Shown piece after piece: positions 3,651 through 57,521 of a stretch of 64,000 bases of DNA. The DNA lies in IMG/VR virus record IMGVR_UViG_3300005264_000002, positions 1 to 64,000 of that record. One strand, 5' to 3'. Both the position numbers and the translations under genes were made by a program. This DNA comes from a virus. The notes beneath the pieces were generated by a model, which did not search any database, had not been told where the DNA came from, and saw only the letters and a list, made by a program, of their open reading frames with translations. The stretch's first letter is position 1. Every line of letters starts with the position of its first letter.

Positions 3651-3674
3651 ATCTTTTATTTAACAATAAAAGAT
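3651..3674. promoter_or_regulatory. Perfect 10-bp inverted repeat overlapping a promoter
   Basis: ATCTTTTATT (3651-3660) and AATAAAAGAT (3665-3674) form a perfect dyad with a 4-nt loop. The right arm coincides with the AAAAGATA box of the promoter at 3668-3698. No T run follows, so an operator is as likely as a terminator. Confidence 0.55.
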
Positions 3675-3698
3675 AAAACCTTTTCACAAACGTATAAT
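3668..3698 (+). promoter_or_regulatory. Promoter of the AAAAGATA/CGTATAAT class
   Basis: AAAAGATA at 3668-3675 and CGTATAAT at 3691-3698 with a 15-nt gap. Drives the operon beginning at 3734 that includes the DNA methyltransferase. Confidence 0.78.
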
Positions 3699-3733
3699 CA
3701 TAAATAATAAAAAACTTTTCAAAAGGAAGTGAT

Positions 3734-4096
3734 ATGTTAACAACAGAAGAACTTGAACAAAAAATAGAAGATTGGCACAATAGAACATCAGTTGCCCAAA
3801 AGAATACCATAAAGACAGGGCAAATAATAACAGCAGAAGAAGCTAAAAAACTTATGAGAGACAATCAAAAAATATGTATGGAAAGTGTTAACCATATTCT
3901 CAGTTACATTGAAGGAAAGATAAAAGATTCATGTAAAAATGGAGGATGTGCGACTACATTTACCTATGATCCAGACATTAATAATGAAACTAGAGAAGAA
4001 ATTTCTACTCAATTATGCAGCTTAGGGTATAAGTGTCCTCTTAGGTCACTTACAGGAACACCGGAAACTATTCTTATCTCTTGGAAGGAGGATTAA
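3734..4096 (+). CDS. Hypothetical protein (120 aa)
   Basis: ATG follows AAAAGGAAGTGAT. The N-terminal half is helical and charged; the C-terminal half has four Cys (CKNGGC, then two spaced Cys), possibly a small metal site. First gene of the promoter at 3668-3698 and directly abutting the next gene. No family recognised. Confidence 0.75.
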   Translation: MLTTEELEQKIEDWHNRTSVAQKNTIKTGQIITAEEAKKLMRDNQKICMESVNHILSYIEGKIKDSCKNGGCATTFTYDPDINNETREEISTQLCSLGYKCPLRSLTGTPETILISWKED

Positions 4097-17599: not shown

Positions 17600-17621
17600 C
17601 TCTCTTAGTTATAAATTGTTG

Positions 17622-46741: not shown

Positions 46742-46903
46742 ATGAGCAACATTAAATTATATGAATTCTTTTTTAAACGACATTTAAAAGTAAAAGAAAA
46801 ATATGAAAGAATGATATCAAATGATCATCCTGATTCATTCTTAACAAAAAAAACTATGGAATTAAATGAAAGATTGATGCTTTTATTTAAACCTACACTT
46901 TAG
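46742..46903 (+). CDS. Small basic protein (53 aa)
   Basis: ATG one base after the previous stop, with GGAGAGTAA upstream; stop at 46901-46903 overlaps the convergent helicase gene by 11 bases. Helical and basic. Close coupling supports it. Function unknown. Confidence 0.65.
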   Translation: MSNIKLYEFFFKRHLKVKEKYERMISNDHPDSFLTKKTMELNERLMLLFKPTL

Positions 46904-48338
46904 AAATCTTTACTCCAAACTCTTTTTGATAAATTCTCTTTCTTGCATTAGAATGTTTTTTTGTTGTCTTATGTCCATCATCAAATGCATCAACAACAAA
47001 TCCAACTTCTTGATGGAATCTTTGAGGTTTTCTGACTACTCTTCCAGTATTTTGCATAACCCTAGTTTTAGATTTCTCTCCAGAACCCAGGACAATTGCT
47101 CCAGCTTCTTTAGTATCTATCCCCTCACCAATAACAGAAGTCCCAATTAAATTTGGAATCTCTCCTCTGTTAAAAGCTTCTACTGTTTCAAAATTATGTT
47201 TTTGTCCAAGTTCACCATGAATAAAAGTAGAGCCTGGGATAATATCATTAAAAATATGTCCATGCTCTATGTTCTTAACTAAGACTAAAGTTGGGATTTT
47301 TTGTTTATGAGACATTAAAATGGCAGATTTTCCAAGTTTTTCATTTCTTTCATCATGATGGACAATCCAATTAGGATAAATATCTTTAGTATAATCTAAT
47401 CCTTTTTTATATTCATCCCATGGATCATTATCTTCAGGCTCACCCCATGGGACATCCCCATGCTGATATTCTTTAGGGACAGGAATGTCTCCAATATTAT
47501 GAAAAATAGGTTGAATAGGTAAAATATATCCCTTTTTTATTGCATCAACTACAGAAAGAGAATAAGTTTGATTGGCCATGATGCAATCTAATAAAATCTG
47601 TTCATTTTTTGAATTTCTAAAGTTAGTGGCCGTTTGAGCAAATTTATAATATATATCCCCAAAAAGCTTTTTATCAATCATTCTTGCAGTTTCACAAGCT
47701 TCATGATGCCATTCATCAAAATAAACACAATCAAAAAAAGAAAACATTTCTGGTGAACAATTTTCTAATGCATCTAAATTTGCAATAGAAACAGGCTTAT
47801 TATTCCCTAATTTATCAAATATCCCTACATTATCTTCTCCAAAACATGCACATAAATACAAATATATTTGTAATTTAAGAGTTAAAGATGGAACAACAAC
47901 CAAAGTATTAACCCCTAATTGTTGGATAGTATCTTTCATTGATCTTGTCTTCCCAACTCCTGTCGGCAACACAATTATTCCTCTTCCAGCAGGGGAGTTT
48001 AATAGAGATTTTGTTGCTAATATTTGATCATCATAAGCAACTGGTTCACTTATTAACTGAGATAATTTTAAATATCCTAGATCTGGAATTATTCTTGGAT
48101 CAATAATATTAACTGGAACACCATGAGTTTGACATGAAATAAAGACTCTTTTGGCCAAACCTGTTGAGAAACTGCCATCAGACTCTATAAGTGAAGTCCT
48201 GGCATAATCCCAATTTTTTGATCTAAAATATTTTTGCATATCATAAAATGAAACATCTTTCCTTATTTTCTGAAAAACAAAATGTGGAATATTCTGAAGA
48301 TATGATACTGAGTTTCCGATTATAATTTTAGAATTCAT
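46893..48338 (-). CDS. Superfamily 2 DNA helicase (UvsW-like)
   Basis: 481 aa. ATP-dependent duplex or branched-DNA translocase. Motif I VLPTGVGKT, motif II DEWH, motif III TATNFR, motif IV-like LVLVKNIEHG, motif V GTSVIGEGID and motif VI QNTGRVVRKPQRF are all visible. The order and length fit UvsW-like phage helicases that process stalled forks and D-loops, matching the recombination genes on the other side. The start codon lies 5 nt after TATAAT of the minus-strand promoter at 48344-48374, so it is likely leaderless. No ribosome binding site precedes it. Confidence 0.9.
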   Translation of the reverse strand: MNSKIIIGNSVSYLQNIPHFVFQKIRKDVSFYDMQKYFRSKNWDYARTSLIESDGSFSTGLAKRVFISCQTHGVPVNIIDPRIIPDLGYLKLSQLISEPVAYDDQILATKSLLNSPAGRGIIVLPTGVGKTRSMKDTIQQLGVNTLVVVPSLTLKLQIYLYLCACFGEDNVGIFDKLGNNKPVSIANLDALENCSPEMFSFFDCVYFDEWHHEACETARMIDKKLFGDIYYKFAQTATNFRNSKNEQILLDCIMANQTYSLSVVDAIKKGYILPIQPIFHNIGDIPVPKEYQHGDVPWGEPEDNDPWDEYKKGLDYTKDIYPNWIVHHDERNEKLGKSAILMSHKQKIPTLVLVKNIEHGHIFNDIIPGSTFIHGELGQKHNFETVEAFNRGEIPNLIGTSVIGEGIDTKEAGAIVLGSGEKSKTRVMQNTGRVVRKPQRFHQEVGFVVDAFDDGHKTTKKHSNARKRIYQKEFGVKISKV

Positions 48339-48343
48339 AAGAC

Positions 48344-48374
48344 ATTATACGTTTCTGAAAGAAGAATATCTTTT
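48344..48374 (-). promoter_or_regulatory. Minus-strand promoter of the AAAAGATA/CGTATAAT class, leaderless
   Basis: On the minus strand AAAAGATA (48367-48374), 15 nt, CGTATAAT (48344-48351), 5 nt, then ATG ending at 48336. Transcription would begin at or next to the start codon. Confidence 0.78.
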
Positions 48375-48384
48375 TTTATTTTTA

Positions 48385-48710
48385 GGCTATGCGTTAAGAA
48401 GATTTTGGGTATAGTATGGCCTTTTTGGTAGGAGTTGAGCGAAGCGAACGACAAATACTATTAATATTTATTCAAATTTATATAATAATTAATGAAAATC
48501 CGAGCGGTAACACCCGAGAGATTTTCGGTCTAACCCTAGGGGATATTTGGGTTAGCCTAACTCGCTTAACGCCCCTGATTGGGGCTACTCGTTATCACGT
48601 AGTGGAGTTGAGGGAGGTAACGACCGAACGACTAAGACTATTAAAAGAATCCGATTATATCGAGCGGCCGCGATTTGTCAAGTTTACCGCCGAGAAAATT
48701 AAAATAATAA
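48385..48710. other. CpG-rich, hairpin-rich island between divergent promoters
   Basis: This stretch has roughly 25 CpG dinucleotides by eye, whereas flanking phage DNA has very few. Visible pairings: GAAAATC (48494-48500) with GATTTTC (48520-48526); CTAACCC (48530-48536) with GGGTTAG (48549-48555); GCCCC with GGGGC (48571-48585); ACTC with GAGT around CAC-GTA-GTG (about 48587-48608). A direct repeat starting GGAGTTGAG lies at 48431 and 48604, and GCGGCCGC at 48664-48671. It separates the helicase gene from the replication operon. Candidate replication origin, structured RNA, or acquired DNA. Confidence 0.7.
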
Positions 48711-48790
48711 AAAAAAAGATATTTCCTCCAGATTACACGTATAAGATATCAAAACAACCAAGGAAGCATAAAAATGGAATTAAGATTTAA
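48416..48790 (+). CDS. Doubtful open frame across the CpG-rich island (124 aa)
   Basis: An uninterrupted frame from ATG 48416 to 48790, overlapping the next gene by 17 bases and running over its promoter. No good ribosome binding site. Composition (Arg codons CGA/CGG, many CpG) differs from neighbours. Translation contains GVERSERQILLI and TTERLRLLKE, echoes of the DNA repeat. It may be coding DNA of foreign origin, or an open frame by chance in a structured element. I favour the second. Confidence 0.25.
   Translation: MAFLVGVERSERQILLIFIQIYIIINENPSGNTREIFGLTLGDIWVSLTRLTPLIGATRYHVVELREVTTERLRLLKESDYIERPRFVKFTAEKIKIIKKKIFPPDYTYKISKQPRKHKNGIKI
48431..48644 (+). repeat. Imperfect direct repeat in the CpG-rich island
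   Basis: Unit 1 (48431-48464) and unit 2 (48604-48644) both begin GGAGTTGAG, contain CGAACGAC and end ACTATTAA, with 7 extra bases in unit 2. Confidence 0.7.
48714..48745 (+). promoter_or_regulatory. Promoter of the AAAAGATA/CGTATAAT class for the replication operon
   Basis: AAAAGATA at 48714-48721 and CGTATAAG at 48738-48745, 16 nt apart. A leader with AAGGAAG precedes ATG 48774. Confidence 0.78.
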
Positions 48791-50180
48791 TTTTGATGAT
48801 AATTTTCAGCAAGGGATTCTCCAGTTAATAATTCAAGATCCTCATTTTTGTCAAAAGGCATTAATGTATGTTCGTCCAGAATATTTTAAAAACTCTTATT
48901 ATGGATATTTTTTTAAAACCTTTAAATTTCTTTCAGAAAAATATGACCGGATAGATGATCTTCATATTCAGAATGAGCTCTTAAAATTTGATGAAGAAGA
49001 TCAAGAAAAATATAACAGGATATATGCTGATATAAAAAATCTTAATGGTGTTCCTAGAGATTTTCAATATATTAGGAATAACCTTAAAAAGTTTATTCAA
49101 AAAGCAACTACTTGGCATATTAACCAAAAATTAGTCAAGGCCCAACATAAAGATCCTGATGAATTATTCAAAATGATCCAAAAAGATATCACAGCATCAG
49201 CTATGGTAAATTTTGAAGAAGATGATTCAATGAGTTTCAACGATTTAAGAAAGGTCATGAAAGAATCAGCGGAATCAGTTGGGGTATTATTGCCACTAGG
49301 GATTCCTATTATTGATGCTGCACTAGGAGGAGGAGTTGAAAGGGAAACTTTGACTCTTGCTTTAGGTGGAACGAATGTTGGGAAGTCAATTTTTCTTATT
49401 AATGTTTGTTATCATTGGTTAACTCAAGGATTTAAAGTCCTATATCTTAATCTTGAGGGGAGAAAAATACAGCCTCTATTAAGACTTGGGGCCAGGGCGT
49501 TACATGTTCCTTATGGAAGAGTCAGGAATCATGATCTTACAGATGAGGAATGGGAGCGTTTTAATAATTTTAAAAAACAATATGGTGAAAATTTAAGAAT
49601 TAAACATGTCGCAGAGTTTGGATATACTGTTGAAGAATTTACTGCATATTGTAAAGATTTATATAAAGAATTTCCTTTTGACGGAATTGTTGTCGATTAT
49701 GGCCAGCTACTTCAAACAAAAGAAAAGTTTAGGGATCTAAGACATAGACAAGCTCACGTTCATCAATGCCTTGATGGACTTGCTGGGATGTTCAAAGCAG
49801 CATGTTTAACCGTTGCCCAAGGAAACAGAGAGGCCCAAGGTAAAAATGATCAAGGTTTTAGATTACTTAAGAAAGAAGACATTTCTGAATGCTTTGAGAT
49901 CACTCGTAAGGCTGCAACAATCTTTACTCTTAATCGTTCAGAGCAAGATGAACAAGCAGAAAGAGTTAGAATCTTATTAGATAAACAAAGGGATGGAGAG
50001 AAAGGCGTTATTGCTAACTGCAAAACAAACATGGCCTACATTGCTTATTATGGATCTGAAGAAGAAGGATTAGGATTTTTATCTCATGAGGAATATGAAA
50101 GCAATCAAACGAATATTCCTGCTTATATTCCTGAAGAATCGAATCCAACATCTACTCCAGAGATAACTAATGGTAATTGA
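48774..50180 (+). CDS. Replicative DNA helicase (DnaB-like)
   Basis: 468 aa, hexameric 5'-3' helicase that opens the fork. Residues 1-130 are the helical N-terminal domain; the RecA-like domain follows, with Walker A GGTNVGKS at 198-205, a Walker B-like FDGIVVDYGQLL, and DnaB-type downstream motifs (VAQGNREAQGK, arginine-rich RKAATIFTLNR). The last 40 residues are Pro/Asn/Thr-rich and disordered. First gene of the replication operon and overlapping the primase gene by 11 bases, so helicase and primase are made together. Confidence 0.92.
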   Translation: MELRFNFDDNFQQGILQLIIQDPHFCQKALMYVRPEYFKNSYYGYFFKTFKFLSEKYDRIDDLHIQNELLKFDEEDQEKYNRIYADIKNLNGVPRDFQYIRNNLKKFIQKATTWHINQKLVKAQHKDPDELFKMIQKDITASAMVNFEEDDSMSFNDLRKVMKESAESVGVLLPLGIPIIDAALGGGVERETLTLALGGTNVGKSIFLINVCYHWLTQGFKVLYLNLEGRKIQPLLRLGARALHVPYGRVRNHDLTDEEWERFNNFKKQYGENLRIKHVAEFGYTVEEFTAYCKDLYKEFPFDGIVVDYGQLLQTKEKFRDLRHRQAHVHQCLDGLAGMFKAACLTVAQGNREAQGKNDQGFRLLKKEDISECFEITRKAATIFTLNRSEQDEQAERVRILLDKQRDGEKGVIANCKTNMAYIAYYGSEEEGLGFLSHEEYESNQTNIPAYIPEESNPTSTPEITNGN

Positions 50181-51288
50181 TATTAAAGCGATCCTTCAAG
50201 ATAAGGGTATTGGTTTTATCGAAAATTCTGACAACTATATTTTAAATAGTTGCCCTGCTTGTAATGGAACACATAAACTTTATTTATCTAAAAAAGATTA
50301 TCGATGGATCTGTTTTAAATGTATGGGGTCAGCAGAGGGAGATGGTGTTGATCTTGATAAAAATGAAGGGAAAGGAAATCTTTATGCTATTTTAAGATTA
50401 ATTGGATTTTCTCATCATGAAGTAATTGAGATTATAGGTGGAAGCAATTTTTCTTATATTGATGATTTTGAATTTCAATCAATTGAAAGCAATAATTCTC
50501 AAGACAAAACCAATGAAGTCCCTGAGATTATGCTCCCTTGGTATTTTTTTAAGCTAGATGGGACAGAAAGTAATATCTTAGAATATGAGGAAGCATATAA
50601 ATATCTTCTTTCCAGGAATGTGAATAATATTAATCTAATTAAGAAGTTTGATCTTCATTATTCCCCGATGAATAAAAGAATCTTTTTCCCTATTAGGAAA
50701 AATTACCATACGATCATTGGATATCAAGGAAGAGATATTACCAATCGACATAAATCAAAGCATTACAAATGTATGAATCAAGATTGTTCAATGAGACATA
50801 ACCCTTATTTTTCAGGAGAGCATGAGGCTCCAGAATTTTGTCATAAGTGTGGCAATAAATTAGAGCTTTGGCATTACCCTAAAATGCTAAACAGTAATAA
50901 CTTTCCTAAAAAACATATTTTTATGAATGAGCACCTTATTAATTGGGAGAAACCAGTTACTTTAGTTGAAGGCCCATTTGATTCAATTAATACTCCAAAC
51001 TCTTTGCCTTTACTTGGGAAGTTTTTAAGTAAATATCAATCGGATCTACTTTATAAAAATTGCAAAGAATTAATTTTATATCTTGATGGTGATGAATATG
51101 GAGTAACGGCCAGTCAGCAAATTTATCATGAGTTATCACCATTTATCCATAATATCAGAGTCGTTCTTTCCAATGATATAGAAGATCCAGGGCAATTTTC
51201 TTATCAAGATAATCAAGAAAAAATCAATTCTTCTCTTTCTTTTCCGGAATGGGCTCAAAAAAAAGATATTTTTTCTCTTTACATTTAG
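50170..51288 (+). CDS. DNA primase (DnaG-type, zinc ribbon plus TOPRIM)
   Basis: 372 aa. Synthesises RNA primers at the fork. Zinc ribbon Cys28, Cys31, Cys48, Cys51; catalytic TOPRIM with LVEGPFDS (Glu) and LYLDGDEYG (DxD). Between them is an additional metal site (CMNQDCSMRHNPY...FCHKCGNK, residues about 198-235), an unusual insertion before TOPRIM. No helicase-binding C-terminal domain is obvious, and the gene overlaps the helicase gene. Confidence 0.9.
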   Translation: MVIDIKAILQDKGIGFIENSDNYILNSCPACNGTHKLYLSKKDYRWICFKCMGSAEGDGVDLDKNEGKGNLYAILRLIGFSHHEVIEIIGGSNFSYIDDFEFQSIESNNSQDKTNEVPEIMLPWYFFKLDGTESNILEYEEAYKYLLSRNVNNINLIKKFDLHYSPMNKRIFFPIRKNYHTIIGYQGRDITNRHKSKHYKCMNQDCSMRHNPYFSGEHEAPEFCHKCGNKLELWHYPKMLNSNNFPKKHIFMNEHLINWEKPVTLVEGPFDSINTPNSLPLLGKFLSKYQSDLLYKNCKELILYLDGDEYGVTASQQIYHELSPFIHNIRVVLSNDIEDPGQFSYQDNQEKINSSLSFPEWAQKKDIFSLYI

Positions 51289-51348
51289 TATTGTTCAATC
51301 AACAATTTTATTAAATCAATAATTAATTGCCTTAAACATGGAGTGTGT

Positions 51349-51927
51349 ATGGGAGCATTAGCTAATGAAGCTGAATTTTTTAAGCATGATGGAATGATCA
51401 AAAATTTTTACTATTCAAACCAAACCCTTTTTAACCATCCGGCCCTTTCTCTTGATTTGGATGATGTCCTGCAAGAGATGAGAGTTTTAATCATTAATGC
51501 TATTCCTAAGTATGATGCATCAAAAGGAGCTGCACTATCTACATATTTATATATGCATTTGAGTGATAGACTTAAAGATCTTAAGGCAAAAATAATAAGA
51601 AGATCCAAATTTCATGCTGGATATACTGAGGATTTAATTTTAAGCAATAGACAAGATAAGCAATCGGATGTTGACTATAAAATAAATTATTTATCCTTTA
51701 AAAATATTCAAGGTGAACATACAAAACAAGATACATTAGCTGATTGCATTGATGTTAAAATAATTTTAGAGCACTTAAAAGAAGATGATCGAAAACTTTT
51801 TGTAGATCGATATCTATATGGGTATTCTTTCTCAGAACTACAAGAGCGTCACAATAAATCTAATACATATATTAATAAGAAATTAAGAAGAATCGATACA
51901 ATTTTTGAAACTTTGAGATTTCAATAA
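51349..51927 (+). CDS. Phage sigma-70-like RNA polymerase sigma factor
   Basis: ATG 51349 with GGAG 5 nt upstream is preferred to GTG 51343. 192 aa. Region 2: LDLDDVLQEMRVLIINAIPKYDASKGAALSTYLYMHL, matching the core-binding and -10 recognition helices. Region 4: LKEDDRKLFVDRYLYGYSFSELQERHNKSNTYINKKLRRI, a helix-turn-helix. No region 1 or 3, like small alternative sigmas and T4 gp55. It probably redirects host RNA polymerase to the TGTAWRTAT promoters before virion genes. Confidence 0.82.
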   Translation: MGALANEAEFFKHDGMIKNFYYSNQTLFNHPALSLDLDDVLQEMRVLIINAIPKYDASKGAALSTYLYMHLSDRLKDLKAKIIRRSKFHAGYTEDLILSNRQDKQSDVDYKINYLSFKNIQGEHTKQDTLADCIDVKIILEHLKEDDRKLFVDRYLYGYSFSELQERHNKSNTYINKKLRRIDTIFETLRFQ

Positions 51928-51932
51928 GAAAA

Positions 51933-51963
51933 AAAAGATAAAAACAATTCTAACACGTATAAT
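51933..51963 (+). promoter_or_regulatory. Promoter of the AAAAGATA/CGTATAAT class, leaderless
   Basis: AAAAGATA at 51933-51940, 15 nt, CGTATAAT at 51956-51963, then 5 nt to ATG 51969. Confidence 0.8.
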
Positions 51964-51968
51964 ACTTT

Positions 51969-52325
51969 ATGAGAAAAATTAAAAACTATATTACTAGAGA
52001 TGTTTTTTTAACTAAGATTTATAATGAAGGTGTTGCTGATTTTGAGGAACTGCATCATTTTGCTTGTAATATTAATGAACCTGTTAGAGATTTTTCTTTG
52101 ATTGTTGATCTTGTTAAGGAAGCGGAAAAACAAGGTATTCTCTATAAAAAGCATACTAAAAGCATGAAATTATCTAGCTACTATAAAAACTTGAGATGGT
52201 ATATGGGGCGGTTAGAAAGAAAAGGTAAAATAAAAGGATTTACTGGTGTTGTGGGAAGACCAAAGGGAGCTAAGAGTCTCGATAGAGGACTTTTAGAATC
52301 TATACAGAACTTATTAGGTAGTTAG
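51969..52325 (+). CDS. Hypothetical protein, probably DNA-binding (118 aa)
   Basis: Start codon 5 nt after TATAAT with no ribosome binding site, so likely leaderless. N-terminal 75 residues are helical with winged-helix-like spacing (FLTKIYNEGVADFEELHHFA...LVKEAEKQGILYKK); a basic GVVGRPKGAKSLDR near the end resembles an AT-hook. Sits between the sigma factor and dnaE, followed by terminators. A regulator is plausible; the family is not recognised. Confidence 0.7.
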   Translation: MRKIKNYITRDVFLTKIYNEGVADFEELHHFACNINEPVRDFSLIVDLVKEAEKQGILYKKHTKSMKLSSYYKNLRWYMGRLERKGKIKGFTGVVGRPKGAKSLDRGLLESIQNLLGS

Positions 52326-52348
52326 CGATCTTTCGCTAATTTGTTTTC
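52322..52348 (+). terminator. Terminator 1 upstream of dnaE
   Basis: TTAGCGA (52322-52328) pairs with TCGCTAA (52333-52339) around a 4-nt loop, followed by TTTGTTTT. Confidence 0.75.
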
Positions 52349-52368
52349 TTGGGATTGGTCTTGATTGG

Positions 52369-52402
52369 CCCTGAGTTTGATCTCTCAGGGTCGATCTTTT
52401 TT
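52369..52402 (+). terminator. Terminator 2 upstream of dnaE
   Basis: CCCTGAG (52369-52375) pairs with CTCAGGG (52384-52390), then TCGATCTTTTTT. Together with terminator 1 it isolates dnaE from upstream transcription. Confidence 0.65.
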
Positions 52403-52422
52403 CTTCTCTCATCCACTTCATC

Positions 52423-52430
52423 CGTATAAT
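52423..52430 (+). promoter_or_regulatory. CGTATAAT -10 element of dnaE, leaderless
   Basis: CGTATAAT is followed after 5 nt by ATG 52436. No AAAAGATA box is present at the usual place. Confidence 0.68.
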
Positions 52431-52435
52431 AAGGT

Positions 52436-55400
52436 ATGGAAAACTTTAAATACGCAAATTTACATCATAAAACGCATTATTCTTGTGGAATTGCCATAGG
52501 AACTTGTGAAGATTCGATTCTTGCAGCAAAAAACAATGAATTATCTGCTTTGGCCATTACTGATTATTGCTCAATATCTGGTGCATTAGAATTTCTTAAA
52601 GAAGGACAGAAGCAAGAATTCCCTGTCATTGTCGGATCAGAAATTAATTATGTTGATGAATGGAATCAAATATTTAATATCGTTTTATTGATTAAAAATA
52701 ATGTCGGGTATCATAATTTATGTAGGTTGATTACTTACGCTCATCAAAATGCACAAAAATATAATAAACCAGCTTGCCTTCTTTCAGATCTAAGAGATTT
52801 TTCAGATGGGTTAGTTTGTTTAGCTGGTGGAGCATTAGGCCCATGGTCCCAATATTGGATTAAAAAAGATATGATCGACTCTCCCAAGGCTAAAATAGAG
52901 GAGCTCTTAAATATTTTTAAGGATGATTTTTATCTTGAATTTAATCAGTCTAATCAAATGTATCAATGGGATTCAAAACATAATGAGTATATCCAAAAAT
53001 ATGATGATAATCCTCATAAGTTTGCAAATAAAGCATTAATTAAATTTTCTGATGAGACAGGGATAAAATGCATAATAACATCAGATTCTTATATCCCAAA
53101 TGAAGAAGATAAAATCCTTCAAGATGTTGTTGTTAGGACTTCTCCAAAAGGAAAACAAGGATTTTATTTTAGGGAGACACGCCCAATTTTAAGATCTGAA
53201 GAATTAGAAGCTAGAATTGCTGTTGAGCACATTGGAATTAGTCATAAGCGACTAGGAAGATATTTTTCAAATACATTAGAAATTGCTGAGAAATGTCAAA
53301 ATCCTATAATCAAATTTAAAGATCAGGTTGTTCAGTTCCCGATAACCACACACACAATGCATCAAAATGGGATGGATAAAAATGATCTTTTATGGGAGAT
53401 CATACGTTCAAATGGGCGTATTGATCTCTCTAATAAAGAACAAATGGACAGACTTTCTTACGAGATCAAGGCCATTAAAGATAATGGAAGGATAGATTTA
53501 TTAGATTATTTTTTAGTTGTTGAAGATTTAGTTCGAGCATGTAGAGATAATGGAGTAGTTGTTGGGCCAGGAAGAGGATCAGGAGCAGGATCTTTATTAA
53601 ATTATGCTTTAAAAATCACTCATTTAGATCCATTAAAATATGGGTTACTGTTCGAGAGATTTATTTCAGAGGGTAGAATCCAAAAAGGATCACTTCCAGA
53701 TATTGATTTGGATTTCTCAGATCAAAAATGGGCAAAGAATTATCTTGGTGAAAAGTATGGATGGGATAGAGTCATGCCTATAGGTACTTTCCAGACGATG
53801 CAAACAAAATCTTCAATAAAAGATGCTTTTAAATTATTCTATCCTCATATTGAATTCAAAGTAGTTAATAAAATTACAAATAAATTTGGTAAAAAAGATG
53901 AATCTGAAACAGAAGTAGAATTTTTTCAAAGATCTCTTGAATCTGATGAATCTATTAAGATTGATCTATTTAAAACTTTTCCTAAAGCTGGAGAGTGTGT
54001 TGAAAGATTAATTGGATTCAATCGCCAAACTGGAATTCATCCATGTGGAATAGCCATTACTCAAGATAAGCTTGAAGGTATCGCACCAGGGAGAAGCTAT
54101 AAAGATAAAATGTCTTTAGATTTTGATGGGAATACTTGCGAACAGGCAGGAGTTATAAAATATGACATTTTATCATTATCAACTCTTAAGTATATTGGAA
54201 CAGCAGTAAAATTAATAAAAGATAGACATGATATTGATATAGATATTTATGAACTCCCAACAGAAGATCCTAAAGTCTGGAAAGCTTTTGATCGTGGACA
54301 GACTGATGGAGTATTTCAATTTGGAAGTAATATTGCTAAAGGGATCTTAACAAAAGTTAAGAGTAAAAATCTTGAAGATGGGTCCATGGTTACTTCAGTG
54401 GGAAGGCCAGGACCAATGGCCAACGATCAACACTTAGAATTTATAAAAAGATCAAATGGAGAACATGATTCAATCCCTCCTCATCCTAAACTTGCTGAAG
54501 TCCTCAAGGAAACTTATGGGATTATGATCTATCAGGAGTCAGTTATGAAGGCCTCTCAAATTCTTGGAGGATTCTCATTAGCTGAGGCCGATGATATTAG
54601 AAAGGCAATGGGGAAGAAGAAAAGAAAAATTCTAATCCCTTATAAGAAGAGATTTATTGAGAATTGTGTTCGATATTATGATCCTGATGGGGGAAAGTAT
54701 CGAGATTTTGAATTAGATCAGATTGCTGATGAGGGAGGGCACACAGATATTTCTCCAGAGCGTGCAGAATATCTTTGGCATTTAATGGAAACCTTCTCAG
54801 GTTATGGATTTAATAAGTCTCATGCGGTATGTTACGCTTATATTGGATATATCTGTCAATATTTAAAGGTATATTATCCTCTTGAATGGTGGTGCTCTTG
54901 TCTCCATCATTCAGTAAGCAAACCAGATAAGTTTTCAGAATATTTTCAAGCAGCTCAAGATCTTATTCTTCTCCCTGATATTAATCATTCAACTAATAAT
55001 TTTTATATTCGAGGTGATAAGATTCAATTCCCATTCAATTCTATCAAAGGTGTTGGAGTTGTAGCTAATGCTGAAATTGAAAAGAATAGACCTTATACAT
55101 CTATAGATGATTTTTATAAAAGAGTTTATAAAAGGGTGATCAACAAAGGTGTTTTTGAAAAACTAATATTTGCAGATTGTTTTCAGTCTTGGGGTAATTT
55201 CCAAGATATCCTTAAACATTATTATGAAGAATTGAGAGGTGAAAAAATCCCTGAAAAATATTTGCATTTAAATAAAGAGCAAAAACTTAACTTAAGGGCC
55301 AAGGCTTTGGATTTTATTGTCTTGGATTATTATGATATTTATCCTGATGTTTTCAATGATCCGGATTTTTTAATTAGACTGGAAGATTTGAAAAATACTG

Positions 55401-55693
55401 ATCAAGGGCAAAAAGTCAAAATTGGCGGTAAGGTTACAGAAAGAAAAATCATTACAACTAAAAGAAAAAAAGAAAAAATGGCCAAGATAGTTATCCAAAA
55501 CGGAAGGGATACCGCAAGAGTTACAATCTGGCCCAAAGAATTTGCTCATTATGATTCTAAAATACAAATTGAAAATGTTGTCAAAATTGAAGGAACGATT
55601 GATTATTTTAATAATCAACCTCAAATTTTATCAACTCATATATTAACCTTAGAAGAGGCCCTAAGACAAAAGGCCCAATGGAGTTACAAGTGA
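52436..55693 (+). CDS. dnaE: DNA polymerase III alpha subunit (DnaE, family C)
   Basis: 1085 aa, the replicative polymerase. PHP domain at the N-terminus (YANLHHKTHYSCGIA), polymerase palm with GPGRGSGAGSLL and the catalytic PDIDLDFSD, the third palm segment around residues 550-580, fingers with GIMIYQESVM and GYGFNKSHAVCYAYIGY, and a C-terminal OB domain (KVKIGGKVTERK...VKIEGTIDYFNNQPQIL). No editing exonuclease is fused. The PHP motif begins seven residues from Met1, so ATG 52436 is certainly the start even though no ribosome binding site is present. Confidence 0.96.
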   Translation: MENFKYANLHHKTHYSCGIAIGTCEDSILAAKNNELSALAITDYCSISGALEFLKEGQKQEFPVIVGSEINYVDEWNQIFNIVLLIKNNVGYHNLCRLITYAHQNAQKYNKPACLLSDLRDFSDGLVCLAGGALGPWSQYWIKKDMIDSPKAKIEELLNIFKDDFYLEFNQSNQMYQWDSKHNEYIQKYDDNPHKFANKALIKFSDETGIKCIITSDSYIPNEEDKILQDVVVRTSPKGKQGFYFRETRPILRSEELEARIAVEHIGISHKRLGRYFSNTLEIAEKCQNPIIKFKDQVVQFPITTHTMHQNGMDKNDLLWEIIRSNGRIDLSNKEQMDRLSYEIKAIKDNGRIDLLDYFLVVEDLVRACRDNGVVVGPGRGSGAGSLLNYALKITHLDPLKYGLLFERFISEGRIQKGSLPDIDLDFSDQKWAKNYLGEKYGWDRVMPIGTFQTMQTKSSIKDAFKLFYPHIEFKVVNKITNKFGKKDESETEVEFFQRSLESDESIKIDLFKTFPKAGECVERLIGFNRQTGIHPCGIAITQDKLEGIAPGRSYKDKMSLDFDGNTCEQAGVIKYDILSLSTLKYIGTAVKLIKDRHDIDIDIYELPTEDPKVWKAFDRGQTDGVFQFGSNIAKGILTKVKSKNLEDGSMVTSVGRPGPMANDQHLEFIKRSNGEHDSIPPHPKLAEVLKETYGIMIYQESVMKASQILGGFSLAEADDIRKAMGKKKRKILIPYKKRFIENCVRYYDPDGGKYRDFELDQIADEGGHTDISPERAEYLWHLMETFSGYGFNKSHAVCYAYIGYICQYLKVYYPLEWWCSCLHHSVSKPDKFSEYFQAAQDLILLPDINHSTNNFYIRGDKIQFPFNSIKGVGVVANAEIEKNRPYTSIDDFYKRVYKRVINKGVFEKLIFADCFQSWGNFQDILKHYYEELRGEKIPEKYLHLNKEQKLNLRAKALDFIVLDYYDIYPDVFNDPDFLIRLEDLKNTDQGQKVKIGGKVTERKIITTKRKKEKMAKIVIQNGRDTARVTIWPKEFAHYDSKIQIENVVKIEGTIDYFNNQPQILSTHILTLEEALRQKAQWSYK

Positions 55694-56265: not shown

Positions 56266-56296
56266 AAAAGATAAAAAAAGATCATACACGTATAAT
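56266..56296 (+). promoter_or_regulatory. Promoter of the AAAAGATA/CGTATAAT class
   Basis: AAAAGATA at 56266-56273, 15 nt, CGTATAAT at 56289-56296; a 43-nt leader with AAGGAGAATTAA precedes ATG 56340. Confidence 0.82.
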
Positions 56297-56339
56297 GTAA
56301 TTACCAAGAAAATAAAGACTGATTACCAAGGAGAATTAA

Positions 56340-57521
56340 ATGGAAGAGCAACAGAATTATTTTGGTTTTGATGATGATATGTTTCAAGGAAACTTCGAGA
56401 AACTAGAGAAGTATAAATTTAGTAATGGGATTCATAAAATACGTTTTTTACCTCCATATGAAAAAGGGACACTTTATTTTAAGGTAGATCTTCATTGGGG
56501 ATACACTGATCAAAATGGTCAAACCTATCCTGTAAAATGTGTTGGCGAAAATATTTGTCCTATCTGTCAAGAGTCTAAGAGAATCAAAGCTCAGTCTGAT
56601 GAAATGATGGCACATAGTCAGGGAGATCCACAAAAAATAGATGAAGCTAAAATTGTTGCTAAAAGAGCAAATGATATAAAAAGGAAGCCAACTTATATTT
56701 ATCAAATCTTAGATTTTAATGGATCACATAAACAAATTAATTTTTCTTATAAACAGCATATGTCAGTATATGGAAAGATTAGATTTTTTTGGAATGAGAG
56801 AAAAATCAATGTGACTGATCCAAATAGGAACATGATTGTTTATGTTGATCGTCAAGGTAAAGGTAACCAAAGCACGTATAACGTTGAAATTTTAGAGGAA
56901 AGTATTAAAAAAATTGATATGCCTAAACTTGCTCAACTTCATGAATTACATAAAGATCAAACAGTTGAGTCTCTTGCAGAGATTGTTAAAACAGGATTCC
57001 TCCCTACCAACAAAAAGAAGGATGATCAGGCCACTAATAATTTTCATGGCTCTAGCAATCCAGTTGGAGAGCCTCCTTCATATATGACTGATGTTCCTCC
57101 TCAAGAAAATTCTTATCCTCCACATAATTCTCATCAACAGAATAGTCAGAATTATAATTATCCTCCTAATAATTCTCATCAACAGAATAATCAGAATTAT
57201 AATTATCCTCCTGGTGATTCTCATCAACAGAATAGTCAGAATTATAATTATCCTCCTAATAATTCCCAACAACAGAATAATCAAGGGAATCAGAACCAGG
57301 GGGTTAATTTCCAGAATAGAATGCAAAATCAAGTTGGTACGCCATCTCATAGTACCACTGAGGGAGTTGCAGGAACATCCCAACCTTCCCATGGGAATCC
57401 TGCTTCTTCCTCTCCTCATACTACTCAGACTCCAGCAAACAATGTTCAGATGAATAACAATCAACAACAAGCTATCAATGAAACTGTTGGAGCTTTTAAT
57501 GTTGATGACATCCCATTTTAG
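56340..57521 (+). CDS. Single-stranded DNA-binding protein (gp32-like core, bacterial SSB-type tip)
   Basis: 393 aa. Residues 1-225 resemble T4 gp32-type proteins: HKIRFLPPYEKG, a zinc-site candidate with His near residue 45 and CVGENICPIC, and an OB-like core. Residues about 260-319 are a Gln/Asn/Tyr/Pro-rich disordered region with a 15-residue repeat. The last residues, FNVDDIPF, equal the acidic tip of bacterial SSB that recruits replication proteins. It coats single strands for replication, recombination and repair. The combination of gp32-like core and bacterial tip is unusual. Confidence 0.85.
   Translation: MEEQQNYFGFDDDMFQGNFEKLEKYKFSNGIHKIRFLPPYEKGTLYFKVDLHWGYTDQNGQTYPVKCVGENICPICQESKRIKAQSDEMMAHSQGDPQKIDEAKIVAKRANDIKRKPTYIYQILDFNGSHKQINFSYKQHMSVYGKIRFFWNERKINVTDPNRNMIVYVDRQGKGNQSTYNVEILEESIKKIDMPKLAQLHELHKDQTVESLAEIVKTGFLPTNKKKDDQATNNFHGSSNPVGEPPSYMTDVPPQENSYPPHNSHQQNSQNYNYPPNNSHQQNNQNYNYPPGDSHQQNSQNYNYPPNNSQQQNNQGNQNQGVNFQNRMQNQVGTPSHSTTEGVAGTSQPSHGNPASSSPHTTQTPANNVQMNNNQQQAINETVGAFNVDDIPF
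57117..57296 (+). repeat. 45-bp coding tandem repeat in the SSB gene, four units
   Basis: Four 45-base units encode PPxxSHQQNxQNYNY-type repeats; the fourth is degenerate. High DNA identity suggests recent expansion. Confidence 0.85.

Follow-up and report, generated by a model that had tools for sequence, protein, structure and literature searches.

Putative leaderless messages for three replication-region genes of a phage, predicted from −10 boxes placed 5 nt before the start codon

Messenger RNAs that begin at the start codon itself, without a 5′ leader, are known but uncommon. Leaderless bacterial genes have a −10 box close to the open reading frame (ORF), with TA-like signals (PMC3160421), and those of Deinococcus-Thermus carry a −10 motif, with a gap of 6-7 bp and often no −35 element in Deinococcus (PMC12340547). 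Most middle and late mRNAs of the Thermus phage phiYS40 are leaderless, and its infection shifts IF2/IF3 (PMC3594737); lambda cI has also been named as a leaderless mRNA (PMC9031893). Phage sigma regulons have been described for phiEco32 and 7-11 (PMC4331800) and for SPO1 gp28 (PMC3594737). Here, we analyzed 64,000 nucleotides of virus DNA (bases 1-64000 of the 76,086-base record IMGVR_UViG_3300005264_000002; hereafter, the window), with the motif scan covering the full record. We consider it likely that three genes of this tailed phage, encoding an SF2 helicase, a 118-aa protein, and the DNA polymerase III alpha subunit (dnaE), are expressed from leaderless mRNAs that start at the A of AUG, from a promoter probably read by a phage sigma factor.

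At each of the three genes, TATAAT is followed by exactly 5 nt and then the start codon, reading TATAAT-GTCTT-ATG before the helicase gene (48349-48336, minus strand), TATAAT-ACTTT-ATG before the 118-aa gene at 51969 (51958-51971, plus strand), and TATAAT-AAGGT-ATG before dnaE (52425-52438, plus strand). This arrangement had been pointed out in the original prediction and was recovered at all three genes when the sequence was re-read. The Shine-Dalgarno (SD) score was 0 at the three starts, and the accompanying claim that most other genes bear an SD also held, with strong SD sequences at 76 of the 103 called starts. The genes resemble bacterial leaderless genes in having a −10 hexamer a few nucleotides before the start codon (5-8 nt in −10-adjacent leaderless genes, exactly 5 nt in all three cases here) and no SD, and the box-to-start range of the bacterial genes includes the 5 nt of this phage (PMC3160421). 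They differ in the gap (5 nt vs about 6-7), in being only three genes of an SD-using phage, and in that two of them carry a full non-host upstream element.

TATAAT lay at this spacing (N5) before 3 of the 103 called starts, against 0.16 expected; none of 3000 simulated sets contained three at N5, and 0.17% contained three at any single spacing from 4 to 9. Within 60 nt of a start, the hexamer was found at 5 nt three times and at no distance from 6 to 14 nt. When the 45 genes with an upstream gap were considered, TATAAT at N5 was present in 3/6 SD-less and 0/39 SD-bearing genes (Fisher p 0.0014). The hexamer was not enriched overall in the window (94 seen vs 109 expected), and two further matches to TATAATNNNNNATG in the window (9167 and 48481) were not at a gene start. 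At N5 spacing the TAA of TATAAT is always in frame, an automatic feature by which a mechanical ORF call always begins at that ATG, so the three starts need support of their own. For dnaE, this came from in-frame TAA codons two and three codons upstream and from the absence of any other candidate start upstream of codon 39, a position beyond the PHP motif, in agreement with the earlier claim that this motif fixes the start. The next in-frame starts lie at codon 34 in the helicase gene and codon 44 in the 51969 gene. The three mRNAs were predicted to be unstructured over their first bases. Spacing, missing SD, and fixed starts, as well as the motif and the sigma-family gene described below, are read directly from the sequence.

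The boxes at all three genes read CGTATAAT, and CGTATAA was enriched in the window, with 11 occurrences against 2.1 expected and no shuffle reaching 11. A longer repeated motif, AAAAGATA-N15-CGTATAAT, had seven perfect matches across the 76-kb record (48351 on the minus strand, 51956, 56289, 3691, 2427, 69053, and 72601) and two near-perfect ones (954 and 48738). The promoters of the helicase gene (AAAAAAAGATA-N15-CGTATAAT, GTCTT, ATG; 48336-48383, minus strand, start at 48338) and the 51969 gene (AAAAAAAGATA-N15-CGTATAAT, ACTTT, ATG; 51926-51971, plus strand) contain the entire motif with a 16/16 match, and dnaE has the CGTATAAT half only (52423-52438, plus strand). Apart from the helicase and 51969 genes, the perfect and near-perfect copies lie upstream of SD-bearing genes with a leader, and CGTATAA-type sites lie either 5 nt from the start, three times, or otherwise only at 25-45 nt. 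The leadered members are genes 69086 and 72654 and, on the plus strand, gene 992 (CGTATAAC; 930-992, 30-nt leader with SD), the amidase endolysin gene 2476 (2404-2476, ~41-nt leader with AAGGAG), gene 3734 (3668-3734, 35-nt leader with SD), the DnaB helicase gene 48774 (N16, CGTATAAG; 48714-48774, 28-nt leader with SD), and the SSB-like gene 56340 (56266-56340, 43-nt leader with AAGGAG). Among the compared relatives, the motif appears only in this phage, with no site matching at 15-16/16 in G001-G003. Exact motif scans of viral contigs with and without N5-ATG returned one and fifteen matches, respectively, none sharing a protein with the phage, and these look like chance or coding matches.

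A candidate reader of this promoter class is encoded beside one of the flush genes. The gene at 51349-51927 (plus strand) specifies a sigma-70-family factor with regions 2 and 4 (Sigma70_r2, 7e-6; phrog_1740, 6e-9; a sigma70-ECF match of 2e-10 fell just under the cut-off) and adjoins the 51969 gene, with 41 nt between them. A second sigma-70-family factor (66042-66557; L004:3043-3555), with orthologues in G001, G002, and G003 at 45-49% identity, is likely a late sigma. A second motif of late type, TTG(G)TGTATATAT or TTGTAAATAT, is found upstream of structural genes (sites at 17619, 25791, 34298, 28428, 16128, and 20305) and is common to the phage and G001. The 51349-type sigma and the CGTATAAT motif are both present in the phage and both missing from G001. 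By co-occurrence alone, the simplest assignment would pair the 66042 sigma with the late-type motif and the 51349 sigma with the CGTATAAT motif, and on this circumstantial ground we regard the 51349 factor as the likeliest candidate reader. The two encoded sigma-70-family proteins and the recurrent non-host motif are features of phage sigma regulons, which the phage further resembles in that the motif is low-copy, well conserved, and situated beside host-type early promoters. Unlike in those regulons, the link between sigma and motif is here drawn by comparing genomes, and the promoters of three members lie flush with the start codon.

In the middle promoters of T4, sigma-70 polymerase acts together with the phage activator MotA bound at an upstream box, and the motif might similarly be recognized by the host's sigma-70 polymerase, aided by a phage activator at AAAAGATA, instead of by a phage sigma. 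We regard this as possible but on the unlikely side; it concerns the reader only and leaves the leaderless outcome unchanged. TATAAT in the −10 half matches the host type perfectly, AAAAGATA falls around −30 to −37 in a layout compatible with the MotA type, and the dnaE promoter, if functional, works on the −10 half alone. The co-occurrence of the 51349-type sigma and the motif argues the other way, since G001 has neither yet shares the late sigma and the late motif; moreover, no MotA-like gene was noticed, although no search was aimed at MotA homologues.

With a phage sigma as the preferred reader, the phage-own class AAAAGATA-N15-CGTATAAT would probably be used by host RNA polymerase carrying the 51349 factor. 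In the usual layout, a promoter placed some distance before the gene would give a short leader with an SD, and the entire promoter being flush with the helicase and 51969 genes, and the −10 part with dnaE, would place the start of the RNA at the A of AUG. Beyond this start and the identity of the sigma, we infer that such mRNAs would be translated by the 5′-AUG (70S) route and that, relative to the SD-led members of the regulon, the catalytic replication proteins would likely be made in smaller amounts or under different regulation. The suggestion that leaderless starts mark genes for a different stage of infection found no support, as SD-led genes (the dnaB helicase, SSB-like, endolysin, and others) share the promoter; timing would thus depend on the promoter class and not on whether a leader is present. 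One promoter class might yield two message types, with leader length as a regulatory switch within one sigma regulon for replication enzymes, an idea that is speculative and quite unlikely; equally speculative is its corollary that the two types would differ in translation rate or in their response to initiation factors changed during infection.

A single phage promoter class that is both SD-leadered and flush with AUG would be a modest extension of known systems. The well-known leaderless phage messages are those of the lambda cI repressor gene and of a Thermus phage, and the remainder of what is described here is ordinary promoter biology. The leaderless cI message arises from PRM; the likeness lies in a phage-gene transcript starting at the A of AUG, as predicted here, and the differences are that cI encodes a repressor and depends on host sigma-70, whereas the present case involves replication-region genes and a phage-specific motif. 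The phage resembles phiYS40 in carrying genes on predicted leaderless mRNAs; however, a phiYS40-type strategy is not what we found, as only 3/103 genes are involved and SD-led genes share their promoter class. If the 5′ ends match the sequence, the phage would offer a natural comparison among replication genes between 25-45-nt SD leaders and no leader under one promoter class, and thereby a direct measure of how the absence of a leader changes phage protein output.

The proposal of leaderless mRNAs gains from the motif, the absence of SD, the purine position in two genes, and the geometry of the helicase gene in G001. In the helicase and 51969 genes, positions 2-7 past the box contain a single purine, the A of ATG, and position 6 is A in 6/8 of the leadered sites. 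Several points weigh against it. The preference for A at position 6 comes from 8 sites only and is no more than suggestive. Transcription starts 6-7 nt past the box in many promoters, so the 5-nt gap is at the short end and a start at 6-7 nt would cut into AUG; because a start one base later would cut AUG, the exact start position matters. The dnaE promoter has no AAAAGATA element, and post-terminator sequence occupies its place. A perfect host-type promoter (TTGACA-N16-TATAAT; 48681-48654, minus strand) stands ~310 nt upstream of the helicase gene and may yield a long helicase leader or a separate small RNA. The SD status and start choice of the remaining genes rest on a simple gene caller. 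Finally, the G001 orthologues of dnaE and the 51969 gene bear SDs, so leaderlessness is not conserved for these two.

Two relatives, G001 (79 kb) and G002 (77 kb), share synteny with the phage, and in all three genomes the helicase gene is SD-less and its start is conserved in the alignment. A search of the relatives for the 5-nt spacing, as had been recommended, was partly rewarded: the G001 helicase gene reads TTGTTA-N17-TAGAAT-TAAAT-ATG, with the same 5-nt geometry behind a host-like promoter, and no clear −10 box precedes that of G002. The leaderless layout would therefore be common to the helicase of G001 at least, and that of dnaE and the 51969 gene appears peculiar to this phage. The G001 orthologue of the 51969 protein has a Lys-rich tail, and dnaE of G002 overlaps the end of the upstream frame. 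Single-sequence searches of viral contigs with the sigma factor, the 51969 protein, and the helicase found no relatives, and the helicase alignment search returned only G001 and G002 again. Capsid and terminase alignments had no match in bacterial genomes and indicated no host.

The helicase gene (46893-48338, minus strand) encodes a 481-aa protein of the UvsW-like family (Helicase_C, ResIII, phrog_16), and dnaE (52436-55693, plus strand) encodes 1085 aa (PHP, 1e-30; DNA_pol3_alpha, 2e-57). The 118-aa protein (51969-52325, plus strand), of unassigned function, has a basic GRPKGAK tail and no Pfam or PHROG family match; its structure model was of moderate confidence, with no PDB match better than E 3 and no usable fold match. 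Two intrinsic-terminator-like hairpins lie between the 51969 gene and dnaE (52320-52402, plus strand). The original prediction had taken both as terminators, which applies well to the second (52363-52396, −22.8 kcal/mol, z −6.2) and less to the first, which is weaker and overlaps the 51969 stop codon. The strong terminator supports dnaE having its own promoter.

The three proteins might instead be translated mostly from longer transcripts, without SD and with S1 assistance at an A/U-rich unstructured start, the flush promoters adding little. Such transcripts would arise by read-through from upstream operons; those of the helicase could instead start at the host-type promoter at 48654. This explanation, which we consider unlikely, draws on the perfect match of that promoter, on the mostly unstructured start regions, and on the short gap between the sigma and 51969 genes, in which no terminator was reported; transcription may also extend from the upstream sigma gene into the 51969 gene, which limits our claim. 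Against it stand the strong terminator before dnaE, the lack of an upstream gene on the helicase's own strand, the perfect motif at an identical distance in the helicase and 51969 genes, and the rarity in this phage of other SD-less genes with an upstream gap. Chance is a very improbable source of the 5-nt spacing, for although an A+T-rich genome contains TATAAT often, here without enrichment, and ORF starts are called mechanically after an in-frame TAA that N5 makes automatic, three sites far exceed the expectation, all boxes read CGTATAAT, two carry the full motif, and the dnaE and helicase starts are fixed independently.

The helicase-dnaB gap spans 435 nt and could hold a small RNA or a replication origin. 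The helicase and dnaB promoters are divergent, and their AAAAGATA elements (48354-48383 and 48703-48732) constitute an imperfect inverted repeat of 30 nt around this region. On the minus strand (48681-48490), the host-type promoter is followed by a G+C-rich stretch of 158 nt that is moderately structured (−43 kcal/mol, z −2.0). Neither the window nor the helicase-dnaB intergenic region had a match in Rfam, and no tRNA genes were found. In G001, an SD-less gene (63754-64113, minus strand) preceded by TTGACA-N17-CAGAAT-N6-ATG, a host-type promoter, is possibly another leaderless gene. The G001 DnaE contains an in-frame insert (L005:8319-9169), which has a TIGR01445 match for intein N-terminal splicing, and the DnaE proteins of G002 and G003 have an insert at a different site. 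The SSB-like gene contains a 45-nt tandem repeat of 3.8 copies (57113-57283) with TATAAT on both strands of the repeat, and a 28-nt perfect tandem repeat, ATAATTAACTGTATATATTATCCATTGG, is located at 1831-1894, just upstream of gene 1919.

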